Below, piece after piece: positions 3,420-59,745 of a DNA stretch of 64,000 nt (position 1 is the first letter of the stretch; every line of letters begins with the position of its first letter). Below the pieces are notes generated by a model. It saw only the letters and a program-made list of their open reading frames with translations. It was not told where the DNA came from and ran no database searches. Origin of the DNA: Rhododendron vialii (Eukaryota > Streptophyta > Magnoliopsida > Ericales > Ericaceae); assembly GCF_030253575.1 (NCBI RefSeq), contig NC_080559.1, forward strand, positions 34,343,501 to 34,407,500. Direction: 5' to 3'. The position numbers were made by a program, and so were the translations under genes.

Positions 3420-4534
3420 GAGTTTTTTTTTTATCCCCTAAATTATGCACATTTTCTCTACTTAGTCTCTAAATTATCAAGTTGATGATTTCATCCTCTC
3501 AACTATCATACCATTACCTACTTAGTCTAATAGATAATGAAAATTAGAAATTTGGATGAAAAATGTCATGTAAGGCCCTGTTTGGACCCTGTAAAGCAGA
3601 TACTTGATTATGAGAGTCTTAGAGATAAAAATTAATTATGGCTCTTTAGGATAAAATGATCAGAAAAATAAGATATTCACACCGGTTCAAACAAATTGAA
3701 AATTGGAGCACTAAATTTTTTTACAAGGTTAATATATTAGAATCTTACGTGACATGTGACATTTTATAGAAACTAACACATACATGTTTTTTTATTTATT
3801 TATAAAAAGATTGAATTCTTTATATAGAATTTAGCTGACCAAAAAAAAAATATATATAGAATTTAGACTGTTTCTATATTAAAAATATGGTTAAAAATTA
3901 AGCGATCCAATTTTCAATCAGTGTGAACCGGTTCGGAGATATTAATTTTCTGATTACTTTATGCTAAAAGGTTATAGTTAATTTTTTTTGTCTAAAGCTC
4001 TCATAATCAAGTATTTACTCTAAAAGGTCCCATATAAAAAGCAGATATTTAATTCTAATAGCCCTAGAGATAAAAATTAATCATCTTTAGAATAATATGA
4101 TCAGAAAAATAATATCTTCGCACCATTCCAAACGAATTGAAAATTCGAACACTTAATTTTTTTAGGTCTATATACTAAAAAATATGGTTAAAAAATTAAG
4201 TGCTCCAATTTTCAATCTGTTGAAACCAGTGCGAAGGTCTTATTTTTCTGATCATTTTATCTTAAAGGATCATAATTAATTTTTATCTCTAAAACTCTCA
4301 TAATCAAGTATATGCTCTATAGAGTCCCAAACAGACCTTACACGGCATTTTCCGTCCAAATTCCTACAAACAGACCTTACATGGCATTTTCCATCCAAAT
4401 TCCTAACTTCTGTTATCTATTGGACTAAGTAGGTAAATGTATGATAGTTGAGGGGATGAAATCGTCAAATTGATAGTTTAGGGATTAAGTAGAGAAAATG
4501 TGTATAGTTTAGGGGATAAAAAGGAAAAAAACTC
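3420..4534. mobile_element. Nested foldback element, ~1.1 kb
   Basis: The outer arms (about 3420-3600 and 4340-4534) are inverted copies. For example, TATCCCCTAAATTATGCACA on the left pairs with TAGTTTAGGGGATA on the right, and ACTTAGTCTAATAGATAA pairs with TTATCTATTGGACTAAGT. Inside are two further hairpins, 3600-4030 and 4030-4335, built from one unit (around TAAAAATTAATTATG, ATGATCAGAAAAATAA and TTGAAAATT) present four times in alternating orientation. There is no ORF of note. The structure fits a foldback element or MITE that took a second insertion of a related hairpin. Confidence 0.7.
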
Positions 4535-8959: not shown

Positions 8960-9305
8960 ACAACAGTTCCCGACCGAATTTTCAACGCCGCGCCGGGCCC
9001 ATTCCAGCCACCGGACAGCTGATCGGAGCCGACCAAAAATTCTAAAAAAAAAAACCGAATGGGTTCTCGTGAGAATCAATGGCATCCTATGTGTGTAGAT
9101 AGCCGATCTGAACACTCTATTTTTTTTCTACAATGTATACAAAAAAATGGAGTGTTTGGATCGGCCACCTACACACATCGAATGCCGTTGATTCCCGCGA
9201 AAATCCACTCGGTTTTTTTTTTTAGAATTTTTGGTCGGCTCCGATCAGCCGTCCGGTGGCCGGAGTGGGCCCGGCGCGGCATCGGGAATTCGGTCAGGAA
9301 TCCCC
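8960..9305. mobile_element. GC-rich foldback element (family also at 59416-59745)
   Basis: A palindromic element with no ORF. The left arm runs GACCGAATT, GCCGCGCCGGGCCCA, CCACCGGACAGCTGATCGG and CCAAAAATTCT. The right arm mirrors this as AGAATTTTTGGTCGGCTCC, CCGTCCGGTGGCC, TGGGCCCGGCGCGGC and AATTCGGTC. The short loop near 9120-9150 is AT-rich. The arms are more than 150 bp and imperfectly paired. A second member with the same arm motifs occurs about 50 kb away, so this is a dispersed foldback/MITE family and not a local palindrome. Confidence 0.75.
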
Positions 9306-12410: not shown

Positions 12411-13201
12411 TTGTAATGCTACTGGAACTTCATCAAGGCCAAAGAATTAATACGTTTAGAACCATTTCTTCATTTTTGTTATATGTATAAGAGACTCTTC
12501 TTAATAAAGGAATCGAATGGCTTTAGATTGTTGGGGATTTATTCCACCATAATCATAAAACACTAACAATCAGAAATGGCAAGAAACACAAAAATCATAA
12601 ACTCAAATAATCAAAGATACTACTTAGACAAGTATAGTAGGGAGAAATAGTATGTGAGATGGATGACAGGCACGACATCTATCCTACAGCCGTATTTGTT
12701 TCCTTTCGTATAAGTTCTAACGACTGAATACAATTGCAAGATACAACTCACAAATCTTACAGTTTGTCTCTACGTTACACTATCGGTGGAAAACATGGAT
12801 ACCAAGTATGAATTGAATTGCCCGTATAAAATAAAGGAGATAGAGAAGAGAGAACTTAAAATACATTAAAACCAATGTGGATGGTCCTCTATTATTTATA
12901 GAACTCCAAAAACATTTTTCCAAGAGTCACACCTGCAAAACAGTGGTGGTATGGACACCAAAATTTGGGGTTTTAAATGTATAAGCCTTATCAAGCTTAC
13001 TTCTTAGGATTATCTCGATGATTAAGTAGTTTTGATGTGCTTCGATGAATTGTGGAAAGCCATGTAAATTCTCAAGAACTCTTAAGAAATAAACGAGTAC
13101 CTTAGAGCTGGAATGGAAGTATCGAATGCAACTTAGAATGAGTTAAGAGGGGTGAAAATGTGTTTTAGCCTCAGTGGCTCCGACAATCTTTATATTACAC
13201 T

Positions 13202-13912
13202 ACTTTCGACCAACTTTTTATAAACTAACATCTATTATTTTTATGGTTCGACACAACAATCTTTTAATACGTCGAATACCGTCTTTATCGATATAAAATA
13301 GGTTTCGATTTGGGTTAAAATAAAGGAGATACAAACTTTTTACAGAATGATTACTTTTTTACTCACTAAAGGTAAAATTGTCACATCTTTTTAGGGACAA
13401 ATAACTTTGGATCAAAACTACTTGGGTTAGAAAATAGACTTAACAAGCTTTCTAACGGTTCAAACCTTGCGAAAATCGGAGTTCGAAAGTGTCCGGAGCA
13501 AGATTGGAAAGTTTGACAAATTATGGAGTTCGCGCGCCCCGGGCGCAACAAGATGCGCCTCAGGCGCATTGAAGATCAAAAATTTGTCAAATTTTGCGGC
13601 CTTCTTCTGAACACTTTCGAACTCCGATTTTTACAAAGATTGAACCTTGAGAAAGATTGTTGAGTCTACTTTTTAGCCCAAGTAGTTCGGATCCAATATT
13701 GTTTTTATACCAAATGATATGACTATTTTATCCTTAGTGAGTCAAAAAGTAAATCGTTCTTGTAATTAACGCTGGCATCACCTTCATTTTAAAATGGATA
13801 AAGACCTGTTATATATCGATAAAATGGGTTTTTAAAGTACTAAAAGATAGTAGAATCCAGCCATAAAAATAATGATGTTTTAGTTTATGAAAATTTGGTA
13901 GAAAACAGATCA
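13202..13912. mobile_element. Foldback element inside repeat copy 1
   Basis: A long imperfect inverted repeat. The left arm contains CTTTTTATAAACTAACATC, TTTATCGATATAAAATAGG, TTTTACTCACTAAAGG and AAAATCGGAGTTCGAAAGTG. The right arm carries the complements in reverse order (CACTTTCGAACTCCGATTTT, CCTTAGTGAGTCAAAAAG, ATATCGATAAAATGGG, GTTTATGAAAATTTGGTAG). The centre is GC-rich with small palindromes, GCGCCCCGGGCGC and GCGCCTCAGGCGC. It is non-coding and present at the equivalent place in copies 2 and 3. Confidence 0.7.
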
Positions 13913-14544
13913 CTAAAAAGATCATGTGAGCACTACCACCCCTCCGCCACCAACAATGTTGCCGTAACACAATCGTTCCACCACCATGATCACTTGACCA
14001 CCTACACAACCATCACTTCACCACCTCTACCACCACACTTCCTATCTGCGATATTGGTGGCCAACTGTAATGATCTTAAAACATCCTAAAATATCTCAAT
14101 AGTTAAGAAACGAATCTAACTTCTAGTTCATTTCATCCCAAAAAACAACCACACAAGACACTCATAATACATCTAATTTTATTTATTTATTAATTAAGTC
14201 TAGATTATCCACTACCTAATGAGTTGAGGTTAGTAAAAATGATATACGTAAATTAAATTAAAAGCTATAATGCATAACCAAAAAAAGCATTTGAACGACT
14301 CATTGTTGCCTCAATTGTTGTTCATTTCTTCTTCACTCGATTCCTATTCTTTTTTTAGCATGAGACAGTGGAATCCACAACCCAAATGTGGAAATTGATG
14401 GACTACATGCATGCAATTCATGTGCTATAGAATTCAGGAAATATTCGCCATCCATTATTTCATTTGCTTTTTTATTGCATGTCACTACTTGAGAAGTTAG
14501 GATCGAAGGTGTGTAAAAAAATCCTAACAACAAAAGAAAATCGT

Positions 14545-16230: not shown

Positions 16231-17307
16231 GGGCTAGGCTAATCCTCCTTGTTTAGCTTTGTCTTTTTTAATCTTTGATAGCTCTTTTTTGTAGCCTTGA
16301 AGGCATGATTGGCGGATTTAAAAAAAAAGAAGGGAAACTAATAGATACTTTCTCTCTCAAAAGCAAACTTTAATGCAAGTCTAGGCTTAGTGGTTTTTGA
16401 TTCATGTACTCCTTTTCGAGAATTTCAATTCAATGAGGATATATATATATATATATATATTTTTTTTTTTTTGCCATTCGTTAAACCTAATGTCGCAAAA
16501 TATCAAGATACATAAAAAAGTAATTCTATTGGCACTTCATCAAGGCCACAAAATACGTTTAGAACCATTTCTACATTTTTGTTATATGTATCAGAGACTC
16601 TTCTTAATAAAAGAATCGAATGGCTTTAGATTGTTGGGGATTTATTCCATCATAATAATAAAACACTAAAAATCAGAAATGGCAAGAAACACTAAAATCA
16701 TGAACTCAAATAATCAAAGATACTACTTAGACAAGTAGCGTAGGGAGAAATAGTCTGTGAGATGGATATGAGGCATGACATCTGTCCTACAGCCATATTT
16801 GCTTCCTTTCGTATAAGTTCTAACGGCTGAATACAATTGCAAGATGCAAGATACAACTCACAAATCTTACAGTTTGTCTCTTCGTTACACTATTGGTTTA
16901 AAACTTTGATGCCAAGTATGAATTGAATTGCCCGTAAAAAATAAAGGAGATAGAGAAGAGAGAACTTAAAATGCATTAAAACCAATATGGATGGTCCTCT
17001 ATTATTTATAGAACTCCAAAAACATTTTTCCAAGAGTCACGCCCACAAAATAGTGCTGGTATGAACACCAAAATTTGGGGTTTTAAATGTATAAGCCCTG
17101 TCAAGCATACTTCTTAGGATTATCCCGATGATTAAGCAGTTTTTATGTGCTTTGATGAATTGTGGAAAGCCTTGTGAATTCTCTAGAACTCTTAAGAAAT
17201 AAAAGAGTACCTTAGAGCTGGAATGGGAGTATCGAATGCAACTTAGAATGAGTTGAGAGGCGTGAAAATGTGTTTTAGCTTCAGTGGCTCCGACAATCTT
17301 TCAATTA

Positions 17308-18058
17308 GTCTACTTTCAACCAACTTTTTATAAACTAAAATCTATTATTTTTATTGTTCTATACAACCATCTTTTAATATGTTGAATAGCCTCTTTATCA
17401 ATAAAAATAGGTTTTGGTCTGGTTTAAAATAAAGGAGAAACAAACGTTTCAAAGAATGCCTTATTTTTTTACTCACTGACGGTAAAATAGTCACATATTT
17501 TTAGTTACAAATAACTTGGGATCAAAACTAATTGGGTTAGAAAATAGACTTAACAAGCTTTATAGCGGTTTAAACCTTGCGAAAATCGGAGTTCGAGAGT
17601 GTCTGGAGCAAGACTTGAAAGTTTGACAAATTATGGAGTTTGAGGTTGGGCGCAGCGCCTGGGCACCATGTCATGCGCCCCGGGCGCAATAAGATGCGCC
17701 TTAGGCGCATTGAATATCAAAAAAATTTAAAATTTTGTGGGCTTCTCCTGAACACTTTCGAACTTTGATTTTCGCAAAATTTGAAACGTTAAAAAGCTTG
17801 TTGAGTGTACTTTTTAACCCAAGTAGTTCGGATACAATATTGTTTGTATACTAAATGATATGACTATTTTACCCTTAATGAGTAGAAAAGTAAATCGTTC
17901 ATGTAATTAACGCTGGCATCACCTTCATTTTAAAATGGATAAAGACCTGTTATATATCGATAAAGAGGGTTTTCAAAGTTTTAAAAGATAGTAGAATCCA
18001 GCCATAAAAATAATGAAGTTTTATTTATGAAAAATTGGTAGAAAACAGACCACTAAAA
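17308..18058. mobile_element. Foldback element inside repeat copy 2
   Basis: Equivalent of the foldback at 13202-13912, with the same arms and a longer GC-rich centre (about 17637-17710) containing GGGCGCAGCGCCTGGGC, GCGCCCCGGGCGC and GCGCCTTAGGCGC. This shows the ancestral loop is about 70 bp. No coding potential. Confidence 0.7.
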
Positions 18059-18654
18059 AGATAATGGGAGCACTACCACCCCTCCGCCACCAACAATGTT
18101 GCCGTAACACAATCTTTCCACCACCATGATCACTTGACCACCTCTACCACCACACTTCCACTCTGCAATAATGGTGGCCAACTGTAATGATCTCAAAACA
18201 TCCTAAAATATCTCGATAGTTAAGAAACGTTTCTAACTTCTTGTCCTTTTCATCCCAAGAAAATACACCGCAACACATTCATAATACATCTAATTTTATT
18301 TATTTATTAATTAAGTCTAGATTATCCACTACCTAGTGAGTTAAGGTTAGCAAAAACGATATACATAAATTAAAAGTTATAATGCTTAACCAGAAAAAGC
18401 ATTTGAACAACTCATTGTTGCCTCTATTGTTGTTCATTTCTTCTTCACTCGATTCCTATTCTTTTTTTAGCATGAGATAGTGGAATCCACAACCCAAATG
18501 TGGAAATTGATGGACTACATCCATGCAATTCATTTGCTATAGGATTCAGGAAATATTCATCGTCCATTATTTCATTTGCTTTTTTATTGCATGTCACTAC
18601 TTGAGAAGTTATGATGAAAGGTGTGTAAAAAAATCCTGGCAACAAAAGAAAATC

Positions 18655-22706: not shown

Positions 22707-23425
22707 TCTACTTTCGACCAACTTTTTATAAACTAAAATATATAATTTTTATGGTTTGATACAACCTTCTTTTAATACGTCGAATACCCTCTTTATCGAT
22801 ATTAAATAGGTTTCGGTCTAGTTTAATATAAATGAGATACAAACGTTCTAAAGAATGATTTATTTATTTACTCACTGAAGGTAAACTAGTCATATCTTTT
22901 AAGGTACAAATAACTTTGGATCAAAACTATTTGGGTTAGAAAATAGACTTACCAAACTTTCTAACGGTTCAAACCTTGCAAAAATCGGAGTTCGAGAGTG
23001 TCCGAAGCAAGACTTGAAAGTTTGACAAATTATGGAGTTTGAGGTCAGGCGCCGCACCTAGGCACCATTTCATGCGCCCCGGGTGCAATAAGATGCGCCT
23101 CAGGCGCATTGAAGATCAAAAATTTGTTATATTTTACGGGCTTCTCCCGAACACTTCCGAACTCCGATTTTCGCAAAGTTTGAACCGTTAGAAAGCTTGT
23201 TGAATCTACTTTTTAACACAAGTAGTTTGGATCCAATATTATCTGTATACCAAGTGATATGACTATTTTACCCTTAGTGATTCGAAAAGTAAATTGTTCC
23301 TGTAATTAACGCTGGCATCACCTTCATTTTAAAATGGATAAAGACCTATTATATATTAATAAAGAGGGTTTTTAAAGTACTAAAAGATAGTAGAATATGG
23401 CCATAAAAATAAGAAAACAGACCAC
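22707..23425. mobile_element. Foldback element inside repeat copy 3
   Basis: Third copy of the ~0.7-kb foldback, with GC-rich loop around 23038-23110 (GCGCCGCACCTAGGCACC, GCGCCTCAGGCGC). The arm motif AAAATCGGAGTTCGAGAG pairs with CTTCCGAACTCCGATTTT. Confidence 0.7.
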
Positions 23426-29900: not shown

Positions 29901-32900
29901 AGACTTTTTTTGGAACGAGATTTTCTTATAAATTCCACTAAATGCTCTAACGCTCATAACTCTGATGGCCTTTTATTTGTTTGCATTTTACTCAAATGCC
30001 AGCAGCATTGTTTTCTTGCTCTCTGTAGTTTCGTTCATTCTTTCATTACCATGCATTCTGTTGGCATTTATGACATTTAGCTTTGTATGCAGGGCAATAC
30101 CATTGGAAGAGCGCTCACGAGCGGTTTCATTTGTTTTTGGTGGTTTAAGTGTCGGAAGCGTCTTAGGGTATGTTTCCACCAGAATTTATTGAGCATATTT
30201 ATCCATGCATTACTTCAGTGCGTTCATGCTCAATCACAATGTTTAAGCAAGGAACACTAATCCCAAGGAGGTCTTCCTGTTCTAACTGGAAAATTGATCT
30301 TCGAGTTGAATGCTTCAACACCAATTTTCGACTTTGCACTTTTACCACCTCTGTGGGAATTGAGGATTGGTGCAAAAGGCCCTTCACGTTAAGGATTCAT
30401 ATGAATTGTCAATACTGGTTGTTCCTATTTGCTGCGGAATTTCCCTGAGAAAATGATTACTAAAATGCCAAATTTCTTGCTTTAACTGATGTTATCCTTG
30501 TATTAATATCCCGTGCAAAAATTACCTTCTGGGTCTCTGTGGGAATATCAAGAAGCTGTGCTCTTACTTTGATTGTAGATTCTTAATTCCAGGTTTACCA
30601 AATTATAGGTATTCTTCTTTTCTACTATTTGTTAGCCATTGCCTATTTTTAACTTGGAGAAATTTTGCAGGCTTCTTTTGGCTCCTCCCCTTATCCAGAA
30701 TTTTGGTTGGGGATCTGTATTCTACCTATTCGGCCTTTTCGGAATAACCTGGTGAGTGGCTGTTACTAGAACTTTTTCTGATGGTACATTATTTTTCTTC
30801 ATATGAATGTTTACTCAGTTATAAAAGAATAATAGCACTCAATGAAATGATAGGCCATTGCTCCTTCCATTTATTTGGATGTAATCTGAAAGCTGCTAGA
30901 AATTTATATTCGAGACTAATTGAGATTTCAATTGGCGATATGAAGGTTTGACTGATTTGTGACTTTCCACTCGTCTCATTGGCCCAAATTCTTGCAGGTT
31001 TTCAGGATTTCAGTTTCTTACAGTTGAAGGACCTCTCTATGGTGCGTCAACTTTTTCATGTAAGTAATCAAAATTTTCATTCCTTTTTTTTTTACACTAC
31101 ACATTTCTTTATTGTTGTGCAAAACTGCTCATTTTATCACAAGCAACGAGTTGGCTACTGATCTAGAGCCTAGAGGTTCATTCAATATCATGGAGTAGGA
31201 GATTTTCATCATGATCAATAATCTAACTCTATGGATTCAGACACTCATTGTCCCTTTTTTGGCTTCAACTTCCTTTTCTTATATTACATCATGCTCTGCT
31301 GGAACTTCTGATGGCATCTAACTACTACAACAACAACAACAACATAACATAACCCATCTAATCCCCAATCATTGGGGGTATGGGCGGGGGATGATTGGAG
31401 ACAGACCTAACCTTTGGCAATATATGCACAGAATGACTGCTCTCAGAATACCACTGAAACAGTGGCCCCCCTAACCTCCAAGAACCGAGGAGCTACAGGG
31501 ACGTTTTGTTGTAGAACCATGCCCCCAAATCAAAGCCAAATGGCATCAGAGAGGGCAGGCCTAGAGACCCAAATCAATTTATGGCATCTAACTACTAGCC
31601 TCTCAAATAACTCACACTTTTTGCCTGATTGCTCTTTTCAAGTACAGAAAGTATCCCCTCCTCACCTTGCTTTTCTGTAAAAGTCTTTTGCATTCTCTAC
31701 ATTTCAATTGTAGAAACATCTTTAGTTATGTTAATAACAAGTTACATGTGTTACTGGTAGGAAGAGCATTTTATAATATCATTGTGAAACTTTCCTTATG
31801 TTTTAATTTTATGATGTATCAACCTAAACGTTGTGGCGTTGCCAATCCGCTCAAAAATGCATCTGGTTTTATTAATACAAAAGTGGTGCTTCGCTTACGT
31901 TCTTGAACCATGAACAAGCTTCCCACAGGATTGGGAATCAAGTTATATGCTTTGTGTCCCCTCTACCATGGACCAAAGAGGTTATACTGCTATGTATGAA
32001 GTTTTCCTGGTGTTCTAACAGAGGAACTTTAAGGCTAAGATTGATATTTCAAAGCGGGACTACCTTTTGCTAGAGATCCTCTCCCGTAGCCATAAATGTA
32101 ACTTTTGATATCTTCACAGGGTCCCAAACCGTATCTGGGAAGAAATCACGGAATCCTTCTTTAGAAGAGTTGGGTGATTCAATCAAGGTATGCTGCAAGT
32201 TTTTCTTCCCGTTTTTTTCCTGATACCTATTCTACATCTTATATTCTGGATGATTATGTGAGAAATGTGTGAAATTGTATATGTTAACTGAATGATGTAA
32301 ACCAAAAAATTTTAAATTTGGATGAATGCTCAATTTGGTGGATAGTGTACGTATTGTTGCTCATTGCCTGCTGGTTTAAGCTTTGGGGACAATTGGTTAT
32401 CATGGTATCCCAGATTTGCTTTCTAGGAGGTCTTGTGCTCTTCTAGTCTATTTGTTTCCATTTGTTCCCAATTACATTTTGTTTCTATCTCTGTGTGTTC
32501 TAGATGGGATTGTGCATGAGTGAAGGTGTTCAATAGCTTGATACAAATTGTTGGCTGTTGGGCTGTTGCCTTTTTCCCTTTTCTATCAGAATCATGTGGT
32601 TATTTGTTTTTAATGCCACCACGAGTGCGTCTGTGCTAGTGGGCAGTTCAAGAAACCTACTTTGATGCAATTTTCGTTTGTTGGGCCTCTCACTTTTTTT
32701 ACTAGCTTCTTGTTTTTGGTTTATTTAAGGATGTTCCATGGAAGGCATTTTTCAAAAGCGAAGCTGTTAGGGCGATGATATATGCTCATTTTTGTGGCAG
32801 TTGGGGTCACTATACTTGTCTGTCTTGGCTGCCTACTTATTTCAGGTACCTTTGTAACTAGCAGCTATTTCCACCTTCCAAATCTTTGAGTGCATAGTAT

Positions 32901-40809: not shown

Positions 40810-41929
40810 CTTTTGTTTTTTCTTGCAGATGTAAGCCAATTCAAGATCCGTGACTATCCATCTCTTCATATGGAGGATGAAGCCATGAGAGCGTTGGAAT
40901 TGGTATTAGCACCCAAAAGATGGAAGTTGGGTGGGAAGATGCAATCTTTTGTGACTTTATGAAGAAGCGAGGAAACAAAGCAATATGGTTGTGGATAATG
41001 TTAAGATCGGAATGGTGAAAAAGTTGTTGCTAGTGGGCCATTCTACAACCAGAAATGATTCGTGCATAGCAAGCTGTGCACAACAGCTTTTTTCTTCCGC
41101 CTCGGATCGCACAAAGATGATCGGAGCCGCTCATTTTGTTCAAAAAACTAAATTCTGAAGTGATTTTGGGTGTTTTGTTAACGCCTCTAACGATATCGAA
41201 CGAAGCTCATTTTTTACAGAGACCTTAAACGACATATTTTGAACAAAATGAGCGACTCCGATCATCTTTGTGCGATCCGGAGCGAGAGAAAAAGGCTGCT
41301 GCACAGCAGTATGTGCACGTAGCACAGCTCTTCTACAACTCTGGAAAAGAGAGAGATTGCTGAATAAGGGGGGAAATGGAGAGTACTGTGGAGTGTGATG
41401 GCTTTGACAATTGACGCTACCGACAACTTTTTATTGTTCTCGTTCTCGAGTGTAAAAATAAGCATTTCTTTACTCTTTAAATTGAAGTAAGGTACTAAGT
41501 ACTAACATGCGAAGCAATCAATAATTCATGTTAATACAATCTCACACTTCACCGGGGTGACTCCAAAATTTTCATTAGCGGTGACAAAAATATAGAATGC
41601 GTTAGTGACGAAAATTATTTTCCATATGCATCGGGTAGTGTGTGTGTGAGAGAGAGAGACATAAAAATCCAGAAACCAATATCCATCTTTTATTCATTCT
41701 CAATAGCAAAGAAACTTATTTTGCTCCTAAATGCTACCACTCCAGCAACATACTCCTATGAAATAAGACGGCGAAACAAAAGATTCAAGCCTAAAAACTA
41801 ACACCATTACTGTCACTAGCTTTTTGTTCCATTTTTTCATACCAACACAAAATAGAAGGAAACAAAAAACCTCCCCATGCCATGTTCAATTTCCCCCATG
41901 AAGAGATTAGCCATGCACTAGCACGATTA
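40810..41929. other. Intergenic with upstream region of heparanase gene and a foldback
   Basis: Holds the presumptive promoter of the minus-strand heparanase gene (40810 to about 41050), a ~250-bp foldback element, and the 3' flank of the prolamin-like gene (about 41680-41929). No additional coding region was recognised. Confidence 0.45.
41070..41315. mobile_element. Short foldback / MITE-like element
   Basis: The left arm GGATCGCACAAAGATGATCGG with CGCTCATTTTGTTCAAAA is mirrored by TTTTGAACAAAATGAGCG and CCGATCATCTTTGTGCGATC on the right. The outer parts GTGCACAACAGC and GCTGCTGCACAGC also pair. The loop is about 85 bp (CTAAATTCTGAAG through GAGACCTTAAACG). It is non-coding. No target duplication was fixed. 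Confidence 0.72.
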
Positions 41930-42436
41930 TTAATACGTAGGCGGTGGCGGTAGCGGGAGCAGAGGCGACGATTGGTCTTGTCCCATGCAACGGTTCTTAA
42001 GCATAGGGGGGAAAAGGGGGTTGAAGGGGAACATCTTGGGCCAACAAGTATCCGTAACAGCCATGAAAGCCTGACAACATTCTGGGCTAATCTGGATCCG
42101 GCCACTCCTCGTGGAGGCCGCGACTGCTTCAGCACACCCACGAATGCCTCGGAGGGAGTCCCAACAGGCCATGCCAGGTGCGCCCGGCCCACCAACACCC
42201 GGAACGCCCGGGACACCAATACCCGGAATGTCCGGCACACCAATACCCGGAATTCCAGGAGCACCAATACCCGGAATACCTGGAATTCCGGGGGCACCGA
42301 TACCCGGAATACCCGGAATTCCGGGTATTCCGGGGGTACTGATTCCTCCCCAAGTTTGTGCTAGAGTTGCTGCAACCAACATGGACAAACATGATGCGAT
42401 CACTGCAAATGAGTATGCCGCAGTGAACCGAGACAT
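41930..42436 (-). CDS. Prolamin-like (ECA1-type) secreted cysteine-rich protein with PGI repeat
   Basis: Single exon, 168 aa. The chosen ATG gives a signal peptide (YSFAVIASCLSMLVAATLAQ). An upstream in-frame ATG would add 49 residues that destroy it and that overlap the TATA region. Residues about 34-88 are a collagen-like run of PGIPGI, PGIGAPG and PGIGVPG triplets. Residues about 91-150 form the prolamin-like six-cysteine domain: CWDSLRGIRGC, ISPECCQAF, CWPKMFP and LKNRC (Cys 91, 101, 120, 121, 131, 150), with a proline-rich tail. Plant relatives include egg-cell and embryo-sac secreted proteins. The role here is inference; a repeat-bearing N-terminal linker is less usual for the small reproductive members. 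Confidence 0.85.
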   Translation of the reverse strand: MSRFTAAYSFAVIASCLSMLVAATLAQTWGGISTPGIPGIPGIPGIGAPGIPGIPGIGAPGIPGIGVPDIPGIGVPGVPGVGGPGAPGMACWDSLRGIRGCAEAVAASTRSGRIQISPECCQAFMAVTDTCWPKMFPFNPLFPPMLKNRCMGQDQSSPLLPLPPPPTY

Positions 42437-42525
42437 TGTTTGGCTCGAAAGAACGAGTTCTGTGACTTGTTTGAAAATTGAGTGGTGGGAGAAAAGAGTA
42501 AGGAAATTTGGGAGGTGAGGGGTGT

Positions 42526-42536
42526 GTATATATAGG
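42526..42536 (-). promoter_or_regulatory. TATA box of the prolamin-like gene
   Basis: On the minus strand CCTATATATACACACC lies about 95 bp upstream of the chosen ATG, a normal TATA spacing for a plant gene with a short 5' UTR. The left arm of the long inverted repeat starts immediately upstream of it, at about 42534. Confidence 0.65.
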
Positions 42537-42756
42537 GTCGAGAATTGTATGTCCTGTAACGGTTGCTTTCCATTCAAAATCATAGTTATTTCTGGCTTTT
42601 ATTTCGTTTTTATAGGTTATCTTTTTCATATTGTTGTGGATCAATTGTATTGTAATTGCATACAAAGGTTGGAGTTAATGTGGGCTCTTTTTTTCATCAA
42701 GCAGACAATGAAAATCTTTTCAGATTTATTTGTTTTGGTTAATTCAAGGATATATA

Positions 42757-42793
<37 letters not shown>

Positions 42794-43716
42794 ATGGTAA
42801 GTTCATACGGTGATACGGAGGATTTACAATCATGGAAAATCCTATATTGTAGCTTACTTTTAAATGTTGACCAAAATATGAAAATATAGCACATACGATT
42901 TGGTAACATGTAAATCACCTTGGTTAATGTTCTTGTTCCCTATATTCAATTTTTTTAAATTCCGAAAAGAAAATACTATAAAGCTTCAAAAGGAAAATAT
43001 GATATTTTCTTTTCAAAAAAAAAAAAAAATTAAAGATAGGGAACAAGAACATTAACCACAGTTTGAAGCTTTACGGTATTTTCTTTTCGAAATTCAAAAA
43101 AATTGAAGATAGGGAACAAGAACATTAACCACGGTGATTTACAGGTTACCAAATCGTATGTGCCATATTCCCATATTTTGGTCAACCTTTAAATATAAGC
43201 TACAATATAGGATTTTCCATGATTGTAAATCCCCATATCACCGTATGAACATACCATAACTCTCTCTCTCTCTCTCTCCCCTGTCATGCCATAATTCTCC
43301 GTAGTTAACAATCATGCCATAATTCTCTCTAGTTAACAATACAAATGGAGAATTTAGGGGAGGCTTTGCTTTGATAACAATAGGAGGGGAAATTTCTTAA
43401 AACTTGAATCTTTGAAGAAAATATCGTACTTTAATTCTAACATCACAAGGAGCAATTTTGAAAAGCTCCTCAAATGATATAGTCCTCCTTTAAAATCCTT
43501 GAATTAACCAAAACAAATAAATTTGAAAAGATTTTCATTGTCCGCTTGGTAAAAAAAAAAGCCCACGTTAACTCCAACCTTTATATGCAATTACAATACA
43601 ATTGATCCACAACAATAAGAAAAAGATAACCTATAAAAACGAAATAAAAGCAAGAAATAACTATGATTTTGAATGGAAAGCAACCGTTACAGGACATACA
43701 ATTCTCGACCCTACCA
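42534..43716. repeat. ~1.18-kb long inverted repeat (hairpin) over the prolamin-like gene's upstream region
   Basis: The left arm (42534 to about 42990) and right arm (about 43035-43716) are inverted copies. AGGGTCGAGAATTGTATGTC pairs with GACATACAATTCTCGACCCT. TTGTGGATCAATTGTATTG pairs with CAATACAATTGATCCACAA. AATCATGGAAAATCCTATAT pairs with ATATAGGATTTTCCATGATT, and GAACATTAACCA pairs with TGGTTAATGTTC. GA and CT microsatellites (42762-42791 and 43259-43279) sit at mirrored positions. A small internal duplication of GATAGGGAACAAGAACATTA (about 43035 and 43106) lies near the loop. The right arm has about 140 bp with no left counterpart (about 43280-43490). Confidence 0.85.
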
Positions 43717-44200
43717 AGGGATGTCAATCAGATCCGCCCCGCCCCGAATTGGGTGGGTTTTTCAACTCATTTTGCGGGTATAAGGTCGGGGTTAAAATTC
43801 CAAAACCTGACCGGATTCAAGATGGAAGTACCCCGCTCCGAAATTATCCACCCTAACATATATTTATATATATAATTATACTTTTATCATAATTTAATTA
43901 TCATTATACTTAAAATTTAATTTTTACCCTAATATTATTATCATTATACTATTCTTAACTTTATATTTTCACCATTATACTAAACTACCACTTTTTTTTA
44001 TTAACTATTTTCTTTTATTTTGCTTTTAGATTACCAAATTTTTTTAATTTCTTACGGTGCAGGGTGGGTAAACCCGTTCCCCAATCAGGGCGGGAACGGG
44101 GATACCCAAAGAATACCCAATTGGGTTCGGGCCCCGTAATAATTTTCGGGTCGGGGTCAGGTACGCAAAAAAACCGCCCCACACCGTTGCCATTCCTACC
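43717..44200. mobile_element. hAT-like GC-rich MITE
   Basis: Inverted ends AAGGGATGTCAATCAGATCC (left) and the complement of TTGCCATTCCTACC (right, about 44189-44202). These are followed inward by GGGCGGG/CCCCGCC-rich blocks, with an AT-rich centre (about 43855-44045). This resembles the AGGGATGGCAACGGG-type ends of hAT non-autonomous elements. A target duplication could not be settled. It directly abuts the right arm of the long inverted repeat. Confidence 0.55.
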
Positions 44201-45208
44201 GGTTCATACCATCTTCGTTTTCGCCGGACTTTTCTGCTTCCTGAGAAAGTGTGTTCAGAAAACATTCTCAAAACAGTTTTCACTTCGAGTACGAAACAGA
44301 AGACAAAAAACCTACTCTGTTTCAACTAATTTTTCTGAATGCAGAGATTAAGAGACGAACAAAAGAGTCTCTTTCACTCTATTCTGTAACATTAATACCC
44401 CCAAAATTTCTCTTGTTGGGTGTGGGGATGAAGATTCATAGGATCCCCACACCCTACCAAAGAATGGAATGCAGTCACTCTTCTTTAGTTCCTACAGAGA
44501 ACTCCCAGAAGCCTCAGAATTTCAGAGCGCTAAAAAATGCAGAGCTTATATTCATTTTAGCCTATCAGAAACAAACTGGAGGGTTACAATAACTACAGCA
44601 TGAAGAAACAACTATCTGATTGAATCTGAAAGTTCATAATATAAAGCTCAAAGTTGTAGCCCAACGCTATTAGTTGATGACCAATAAGCTGAAGCTACAA
44701 AGTAATGCCCTTTTGGATAATCAACTTTTTTCATTTTGGGACACGGCAAAAGCTGCACCAAACACGCGCACTGATTTGCGAGTTTAAGCCGATCCAAACA
44801 AATAGCTCGTGTTAGGCTACAAACAAGCACCCACTAAAACTTGCTCCATAGAGAAGAGGTACTCATTGAGCACCGCCAAAAACTATCAAACAGCCCTTCC
44901 AAAATACAAGTGCAGATAATAGCATCCCTTCAGCGAAAACTGACAACAAAACATGGCCCTGAATTTCCTTCCTTGGCATAAAAGTAAAACAACTTCACAT
45001 AGAATCCACGCGTTAAATGAAAATCCAGACACGAATAGAGTTCCATAAATACCATAACAACCCTCATGTGAAACTAATAAACAGCAGGGAGTCAAATGTT
45101 CTACTCTACTAAGACAGACAAGCTAAACCTTCTAACTCATACCAGAGTTGCACCCAACAAAAGAAGAGAGGGACGGAAAAAAAACTAACCAAATACCTAC
45201 GGTGATTT
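44201..45208. other. Intergenic / 3' flank of the acidic-protein gene
   Basis: No gene recognised. It probably contains the 3' UTR of the minus-strand acidic-protein gene. A small perfect hairpin, GGGTGTGGGGAT...ATCCCCACACCC, lies at about 44418-44456. Short frames on both strands have no recognisable domain. Confidence 0.4.
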
Positions 45209-47617
45209 TCACTTTTTCTTTTTAGCTGGTGGTTGATCCTCTTCGTCTTCATCTTCCTCCTCTTCTTCGTCTTCCTCATCGCCCTCGTCATCCTCATCAT
45301 CATCTTCTTCGTCCTCATCGTCATTTCCCCCATTCCCATTAGCTGGTGGGCCATCCTCTGGATCTCCCTCTTCATCATCGTCGTCGTCCCCACCTTCGTC
45401 GCCAGAGAAATCTTCATCACCCGCATCATCAACCTCTTCCTCGTCAACGTCTTCGTCATCCTCTTCATCGTCGTCGTCCGTGTCACTAGCATCTTTGTTT
45501 TCAGGACCAGGTTGTTTCCTTCTGTGAAGCTCATCCATGGGAAACCTGCAAATGATATTTCATCAATAAATTTACCTTCCAAATCAGTATGCAGTGGGGG
45601 GAAGAGACACCCAAAGAGAAAAATAATCACCTTTTCCCAGTTAACTGTGGCAGCACATTAACATCACTCAGCAGAGTTCCTGTCTGAAACCTCAGCACAT
45701 GTGAGGATAGAAACAGTACACAAGTGACAAAGCAGTGGATAAGATAATTCAATCTTACACCACCTAATTGAACATTTCCCCACTGTATAGGGTAGGAACA
45801 GTGTACAGAGTAAAAAATCAATCCTAAAAGCACAAAAAGACAAGGCAGCACACTGCAAGACAAAGTCTATAGGTTGATGCTGCAAAACCATTTCAAACAA
45901 GGTTTATAGAACAATGGAATCCCAAAAAATTTCCATATAAAGGAAAGAGAGGATCGGTGAGAACACAGAGAACTTGAAATGTGAAATATCTAAATCGAAA
46001 ACGTACATCATCGAGATGTAATAAATTCAGATGCAAAGGCTAAAGATTAAACAAGCGATCAGAGATTCGGAAACTATCTTGCAGATCCAAGCAGGACAAT
46101 GGACGCAAACGCGAGAAGAGCAGTTAATTAGAAACACTCCCAAGGTGTACAGGAAATAAGTAAATAACTATCACCCATTGTTCGCAAGAAAGGAATGTTA
46201 TATACCAGGAAAGAAAGAAAGAAAGGGAAATTGTGGACCGGGATTACCCCACTGGATTCCGAAATAGTGGGCCTGGGCACCATTAAAGGAAACCATGAAA
46301 CCCCACTTCCCGCAATTAGATCCCAAGATCTTCTAACGGTCAGCGGATCTCACCAGACAAATTTTGATAACTTCCTAGCCCAAATTCCTTGTTGTCAGCC
46401 AAAAGCCTAAAATCATACTCAACGAATGATATTTATTACACTTCCACATATCAGGAAAACCATCAAATGAAAAGACCGTAGACCACAGAGATTGGAGGAA
46501 CCGTCACTTCGTATGCCATGGCAGGAAAGAGATGTCGGAGACTGAGATATTTAAACTAAACCAAACTAGAAACCTAGACTAGAAACTTCTGTAACTATTA
46601 AGAAAATTTATGTGCAAAAAGAATCCTTTTCTAATTATTAAGAAAAACTAATTCTGAAAACAAAATTGAAGGCCACCTGGTTACAGACACAAGAAGCTTG
46701 TACATCAGTCAAAGATTCATAGACAAACCAAATTTGTAAAATAGCCAGGCTTCTGAAGAGAATCCCACACACAAAAAAAAAAAACAGTTTATGCTAACTG
46801 AATGGTCGGTGACTCCAAATAACCTCTCAAGTAGATGCCAACGTTGACAAATCACCAAATAAATAGTTGGAGTCCGACTTTTCTTAAGGTTTTAATGTCA
46901 CAAAGTAGTAGACCACAAAGGGCTTGATGTGTACTACACGAGTATAAAAAGCAAGGAAATAATAGGAGCCAGCCGTAAAAGAACGAATTGAGAAAAAATC
47001 CAACACCCAGATCACAAAAAAACTCATGTTTTTGTGGAAACAAAAGGGGGAACATGTAGCGCAAAAGTTGGGACAGTCAAACCAGATTAAAGGGGGGGGG
47101 GGGGGGGGGGGGGGGGGTGTGTGGAGGACCTGTAGCTTTATTTTTGCAGCTGAACAGTCTCTTCGAATAACCTCCCAGGGAAAATAAAACCCCTAAATTC
47201 TCGTTGACAATCACCAAATTCAAAAATTAATTAACCTAAACAAACGAATAAGTACAAACATCAACTATACATCGTATTTGTAATGTCTAATCGCTGTGTA
47301 TGTGTGTGCGGGCGCAAACAATTGGGAATGGCGAAAAAAAAAACCTAGAAGTAAAACGCTTGACTTCACAAGAAAAGAGTATACAAGTAAATCCCAGTTC
47401 TTCAATTAGCCCTAAGAGCAAGAACAGAGAAAAAATTCGAAAAAGAATCTTGTCTTTTGGCAAACAAAAATCAGAGGGAATATTATACCGCCAGGAGAAA
47501 GCAAGCAAGAGATCTCTGAGCAGCCAAAAGGGTCTCCACCACCACAACCTCCACGATAGAGGACACCACCATCCTCTCCAGAGCAACCACGTCAGAGCTC
47601 AACTTACCCACCTCCAT
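45209..47617 (-). CDS. Small highly acidic (D/E-rich) nuclear-type protein
   Basis: Modelled as three exons, 47617-47489, 45683-45631 and 45545-45209, total 519 nt, 172 aa plus stop, all GT-AG. Exon 1 reads VALERMVVSSIVEVVVVETLLAAQRSLACFLLA-type sequence, exon 2 GTLLSDVNVLPQLTGKR, and exon 3 FPMDELHRRKQPG followed by about 80 residues that are almost all Asp/Glu with GNGGN spacers, ending PPAKKKK. Plant genes of this shape are often annotated as 'VHS3-like' or prothymosin/nucleolin-like because of the acidic run. That name carries no functional evidence. The basic tail suggests nuclear location. Exons 2-3 are firm. Exon 1 is less certain, as it rests on frame continuity and a donor reading GCG|GTATAA. 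Confidence 0.68.
47092..47117 (+). repeat. Poly-G tract of 26 bases in intron 1 of the acidic-protein gene
   Basis: An uninterrupted run of 26 guanines followed by TGTGTGG, in the long first intron. It is C-rich on the gene's coding strand. Such runs are rare in plant genomes and often misassembled. If real, the plus strand can form a G-quadruplex. Confidence 0.9.
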
Positions 47618-59415: not shown

Positions 59416-59745
59416 CACCGAAATCGTATCGACGGCTGCCGGCGGGCCGTCTCCGGCCACCGGACGGCCGATCCGAGCCGTCCAAAAATTCTATAAAAAA
59501 AAACCGAGGGGCCTCAAGCGGGAATCAACGGCATCCGAGATGTGTAGAGTGCTTGATCTGAGCACCATTTTTTCGTGTATATATGTATATAAGTGTATAT
59601 ACACGAAAAAATGGTGCTCCGATCAAGCATCCTATACATCTCGGATGCTGTTGATCCTTGCGAGGGGCCCCTCGGTTTTTTTTTTTTCAAATTTTTGGAC
59701 GGCTCGGATCAGCCGTCCGGTGGCCGTCGGTATGGTTTTGGTGTG
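59416..59745. mobile_element. GC-rich foldback element (second family member)
   Basis: Left arm CGGCCACCGGACGGCCGATC, CGTCCAAAAATTCTATA, AACCGAGGGGCC, TCAACGGCATCCGAGATGTG and TTTTTTCGTGTATATA. The right arm is the mirror image, TATATACACGAAAAAATGG, CATCTCGGATGCTGTTGA, GGCCCCTCGGTTTTT, ATTTTTGGACGGCTCGGATC and CCGTCCGGTGGCC. The loop near 59586-59598 is only a few bases. Arm motifs match the element at 8960-9305. Confidence 0.78.

Follow-up and report, generated by a model that had tools for sequence, protein, structure and literature searches.

How did a hairpin of more than a kilobase come to lie against the TATA box of a protein-coding gene, and does it act on that gene? The locus lies in the window, i.e., the whole stretch of 64,000 nucleotides that was analysed (G000:C3:34343501-34407500), and was compared with its own genome of 532,647,506 bases (532.6 Mb) in 13 contigs. 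The gene beside the hairpin encodes a prolamin-like protein, a family with reproductive roles. Its 168-aa product contains a Prolamin_like domain (PF05617, E 4.2e-14 in Pfam), in agreement with the initial annotation, and the start of the protein resembles a signal peptide as judged by eye. In a protein search of the own genome, the gene showed no internal stops. PGIPG-type repeats precede the Prolamin_like domain and were not seen in the one C1 paralogue that was read. The position of the TATA box suggests that transcription of the gene itself begins outside the hairpin arms. The gene and the main parts of the hairpin are as follows.

41930 to 42436, minus strand: prolamin-like protein gene, 168 aa, frame intact
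42527 to 42534, minus strand: TATA box TATATATA, about 90 bp from the ATG, read from the sequence
42533 to 42990, plus strand: left arm of the hairpin, read as the native promoter of the prolamin-like gene, 458 nt
43062 to 43713, minus strand: right arm, read as an inverted copy of the promoter without the TATA box or the gene, 652 nt
43279 to 43494, plus strand: unpaired stretch present in the right arm only, 216 bp, with two repeat units of about 28-30 bp as seen by eye

The best gapped minus-strand self-match of the hairpin region scored 567 bits, and the best self-match among 100 dinucleotide shuffles of 42531-43715 scored 44.6 bits. This confirmed that the upstream region of the gene is duplicated in inverted orientation from the TATA box outward, as had been proposed, and the self-alignment also bore out the mirroring of the GA/CT microsatellites between the arms. 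The arms pair in an outer block (42533-42751/43495-43713; 219 bp, 9 differences) and an inner block (42773-42990/43062-43278; 217 aligned positions, 15 differences and 1 gap), which together have 24 mismatches in 436 aligned positions (5.5%) and 1 gap, and a centre of 71 bp lies between the two arms. The arms had been estimated at about 450-580 bp, which holds for the left arm but not for the right arm, which is longer because of the 216 bp that remain unpaired. Of the TATA box, the left arm includes only the final two bases (42533-42534), where the hairpin has its outer boundary. While the proposed anchoring at the TATA box is correct as to this boundary, only these two bases are common to both arms, and the right copy therefore has no TATA box. 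The RNA fold of the 1185-nt hairpin stretch was calculated as -734 kcal/mol, a value without a shuffled baseline at more than 1000 nt; on paper, a transcript of the region would pair nearly completely.

To assign the original and the copy, we used a decayed paralogue on C6 (L005), which matches at 72% over 341 bp from the promoter into the signal-peptide region and has a stop in the aligned frame. Since this continuity from promoter to gene is found on the left arm only, the left arm is, by this homology, the native promoter and the right arm is its inverted copy. Of the 9 differences of the outer arms, 4 could be polarised by L005 and 5 were set aside as unclear; at all 4 readable differences L005 has the base of the right arm, although these were judged by eye and are a small number. 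The 216-bp stretch at 43279-43494 had no match in the own-genome search except itself, so that its loss from the live promoter after the duplication seems to be the simpler reading. It is possible that the inverted copy at this locus preserves the promoter in an earlier state.

The nearest intact paralogue (L038, on C1) has 53% protein identity over 79 residues. A BLAST comparison of its promoter with the promoter in the hairpin gave no match, and a short similar stretch was seen by eye only. Three consecutive prolamin-like matches lie at G000:C1:5888519-5894144, where the nearest paralogue keeps its TATA box, and the own-genome protein search gave more prolamin-like matches on C4, C10 (two) and C13.

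The divergence between the arms is uneven, with 2 differences in the 130 positions next to the TATA box and 22 in the 306 positions further in (p 0.020, for strata that were chosen after the differences had been seen). The low divergence near the TATA box is suggestive of constraint or gene conversion, and we do not rely on it. The 61 bp beside the TATA box (42533-42593/43653-43713) are identical in both arms; the chance of finding no difference among them was 0.03.

Considering its shape, the hairpin might be a foldback transposon or a MITE whose long terminal repeats landed beside the TATA box. We searched the own genome with the whole hairpin, the inner left arm and the unpaired 216 bp, and the arms were found at this locus only, apart from one 141-bp match on C6 at 76-78% identity. 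These searches skip very common words, and a positive control was therefore needed. For the control, a hairpin from L027 (one of the sampled stretches), there were 553 first-look candidates, and it was found at 40 other places with 97-98% identity over nearly its full length; the remaining rows were nearly all the same places on the opposite strand (80-87%), with one further place at 91%. The hairpin at the TATA box is apparently single-copy.

Hairpins as such are common in this genome. The window contains 8 others (E up to 1e-10, span below 4 kb), and in 200 kb sampled elsewhere, as 20 stretches of 10 kb, an inverted match of at least 350 bits occurs at 7 places in 6 of the 20 stretches when nested hits of one place are counted once. 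This frequency, together with the large family to which the one tested hairpin (L027) belongs, would suit an origin as a mobile element. However, the own-genome searches gave no further copies of the arms, the left arm is homologous to the promoter of a paralogue (L005), and the hairpin ends have no target duplication, as flanks of 3, 5, 8 and 9 bp differ. With neither multiple copies nor a target site duplication, the foldback transposon or MITE was rejected, and we consider this origin very improbable. What is unusual about this feature among the many hairpins is that its arms are made of single-copy promoter DNA.

Several of the other hairpins have relatives. In the sampled stretches, a large complex hairpin element at 3420-4534 has a copy of about 80% identity over 1.1 kb (L018) and partial matches (L014, L015, L020 and L029). 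The hairpins at 13186-13922, 17287-18071 and 22745-23410 are a related trio of 0.7-0.8 kb with arms that cross-match at 70-79%, and the compact hairpins at 8967-9300 and 59454-59726 are a related pair with CpG observed/expected ratios of 1.38 and 1.32, compared with 0.62 for the window. Downstream of the prolamin-like gene, a small hairpin element at 41073-41307 has an 82% copy over 220 bp in L025.

Palindromes are a known assembly hazard, and the hairpin could have been assembled by mistake from a fold-back read. The arms of such an artefact would be near-identical, whereas the present arms have 24 differences in 436 positions, a 216-bp difference in length and a nested copy in the centre. 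Owing to these differences in divergence, length and centre, an assembly fold-back was rejected as hardly credible.

At its far end, the right arm had been described as stopping exactly where a hAT-like element begins. The element is real, but it is separated from the arm by a short junction.

43714 to 43715, plus strand: CC junction from the right arm to the hAT-type element, 2 bp
43716 to 44198, plus strand: non-autonomous hAT-type element, 483 bp, no target site duplication

The own-genome search with the element gave 223 first-look candidates, 40 of which were scored, and 42 matches besides itself with 71-84% identity. Among the 42 matches listed, 22 start at query base 18 and none before it, and base 499 or 500 is the last base of 28, as counted by hand. 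The relatives have common ends of the TAGGGATG type and 8-bp duplications, and we take these ends to mark the element as hAT. Six relatives were fetched, and the target duplication is kept in five of them (6, 6, 7, 7 and 8 of 8 bases), which are all those with both ends readable; the sixth has no canonical right end. At the window copy, an 8-bp target duplication was not found, as only 3 of 8 bases match, or 4 of 8 with shifts, and a search of 42400-44300 gave no second occurrence of CCGGTTCA, the 8 bases to the right of the element. Because of this missing duplication and the 2-bp gap, the left flank of the element appears to have been replaced, and the breakpoint is, on this anatomy, at the left end of the element.

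The element differs from the majority of its six relatives at 33 of 451 positions (7.3%), within a range of 6.4-9.8% for the seven copies. Compared with about half of 5.5% for each arm, this would make the element older than the duplication if rates were equal, which is doubtful for possibly methylated elements.

The centre of the hairpin contains two further features.

42964 to 42975, plus strand: 12-bp stretch with a perfect inverted partner at 43003-43014 and a 27-nt loop, a possible fold-back primer
43003 to 43058, plus strand: second, partial inverted copy of left-arm sequence, nested in the centre

The nested copy begins with the 12-bp partner at 43003-43014, and the two features therefore count as one observation. 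Of the 640 tiles of 100 bp in the window, 10 contain a perfect 12-bp inverted repeat with a short loop, the tile of the hairpin centre among them.

In our best reading, this structure is a one-off, old inverted duplication of the gene's own promoter that arose when a double-strand break was repaired where a resident hAT-type element ends, and we infer the repair pathway and the order of events as follows. After a double-strand break at the left end of the resident element, the gene-side end would have been cut back; a short inverted repeat would then have let this end fold over, and the folded end would have primed copying of its own strand back towards the gene. The first copying pass may have stopped after about 44 bp, leaving the nested copy. 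Following re-annealing, i.e., a template switch, a second pass would have run to the TATA box and made the full right arm, and the free end of the copy would finally have been joined to the hAT end. A nested partial copy in the centre is expected from fold-back copying with template switching. Fold-back copying would also take its template from directly adjacent DNA, as is seen here with the apparently native left arm, and no other genomic source was found. Both right-side copies have two bases in common that differ from the left arm, so the nested copy could instead have arisen later, by tandem duplication within the right arm. As the pre-existence of the 12-bp repeat is only assumed, we hold the fold-back origin with evenly balanced confidence.

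Fold-back duplication is a known kind of rearrangement, and the hairpin, so read, is a further case of it. Inverted duplications made by fold-back are described in human patients, with a single-copy spacer between short inverted sequences (PMC3907307), and fold-back insertions are described in yeast, with the far end captured by end joining (PMC11724301). The hairpin resembles both in having a spacer between inverted copies, a short inverted sequence at the edge of the spacer and a copy joined to other DNA. The size is different in each comparison: the human cases as described in PMC3907307 are large, many with many genes, whereas the hairpin copy is about 650 bp, and the yeast insertions as described in PMC11724301 are mostly 5-34 bp, which argues against a fold-back origin for a copy as long as the present one. 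In contrast to the human and yeast cases, the hairpin is in a plant, is joined to a transposon end and has an extra copy in its centre, and its short repeat is only presumed to predate the event.

The main rival to the fold-back reading is that alternative transposition of the hAT element, either between sister chromatids or by aberrant excision, made the duplication directly, with the boundary at the TATA box as a former insertion site. Such an event would agree with the absence of a target duplication and with the 2-bp distance between the arm boundary and the hAT end, and alternative transposition is reported for Ac/Ds and suggested for Tam3. In the niv-525 allele of the Antirrhinum nivea gene (Coen and Carpenter, 1988), an inverted duplication at the promoter is reportedly tied to the hAT element Tam3. 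In this link between an inverted duplication at a promoter and a hAT element, the allele is like the present hairpin; by the title of the report, niv-525 inhibits its homologue in trans, whereas nothing such is known for the hairpin. Inverted duplications beside the element are said in PMC3744419 to result from sister-chromatid transposition of Ac, and PMC9909510 attributes a pair of inverted genes in Scutellaria to a Tam3-like event. However, no second copy of the gene or the TATA box lies beyond the element in the sequence that was read, the nested central copy is not required by alternative transposition, and the element is diverged (7.3%) with no sign of mobility at that time. Considering both sides, we regard direct production by transposition as possible but rather unlikely.

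Whatever its origin, the hairpin had been proposed to yield double-stranded RNA that starts siRNA production and promoter methylation, or to be a young MIR locus. On the basis of the RNA fold, the arms are predicted to pair almost throughout if transcribed from either side. Since transcription of the gene itself probably begins outside the arms, a hairpin RNA would need read-through, possibly from the ORF at 45209-45538, which has an acidic product and lies on the same strand. According to a review (PMC12595863), 24-nt siRNA arise from about 486 of the 634 inverted repeats near genes in Arabidopsis, which, as a prior only, makes such RNA plausible here. The hairpin would today be a relic whose likely activity, if any, is to supply 24-nt siRNA that act in cis, in tissues with transcription through it. 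The Arabidopsis inverted repeats and the one at sunflower HaWRKY6, as reviewed in PMC12595863, also lie just upstream of a gene; about 68% of the gene-near repeats in Arabidopsis are thought there to be transposon-derived, in contrast with the present repeat of the gene's own promoter.

A stronger form of this activity would be an active self-silencing device, in which siRNA from read-through methylate the promoter and restrict expression of the gene. The long and nearly complete pairing of a transcript on paper and the ORF that might supply read-through are consistent with it. Among known plant systems, inverted repeats give rise to Smi RNAs that cause methylation of the SP11 promoter in Brassica (PMC8268441), and siRNA also come from a pair of inverted VIM genes with read-through (PMC13213937). 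As described in PMC8268441, the Smi inverted repeats are like the hairpin in having sequence in common with the control region of a gene, and those of Brassica and A. lyrata act in trans on another allele by means of a 24-nt RNA; for A. lyrata, the match is to an intron with AlSMI1 and to 30 bp before the start with AlSMI2. Unlike Smi, the present repeat is part of the promoter that it matches.

Against self-silencing, the frame of the gene is intact after 5.5% divergence of the arms, which suggests that the hairpin does not permanently silence the prolamin-like gene. C/T differences between the arms affect 5 of 22 CG sites and 11 of 125 other C sites (p 0.067), and the CpG observed/expected ratios of the arms (0.67 and 0.71) are similar to that of the window. 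Neither CG decay nor these ratios gave a clear sequence footprint of methylation in the arms. We consider active self-silencing doubtful. More specifically, the hairpin, as a self-targeting promoter repeat retained over a long time, might be a built-in RdDM switch, in which siRNA would keep the promoter methylated and the gene off save in an RdDM-relaxed gametophyte cell, and in which the inverted copy would be an older promoter able to convert the live one; this seems improbable to us.

The proposal of a young MIR locus was not supported. A MIR gene born by inverted duplication of its target would have arms from the transcribed target, and the arms here lie upstream of the TATA box, from which the start was placed, and are promoter rather than transcript. 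Since, in addition, no closely matching target was found elsewhere in the genome by searches that are not designed for 21-mers, a MIR gene is unlikely and this candidate was rejected.

At this promoter, the anatomy of the breakpoint, the end of the transposon and the native arm can all be read from the sequence alone. As a natural experiment, the locus would show whether an inverted repeat suffices to draw siRNA and methylation to a gene when it consists of that gene's own promoter and not of a transposon. Elsewhere in the window, positions 31502-31603 on the minus strand match the H/ACA snoRNA snoR100 at 54.8 bits.
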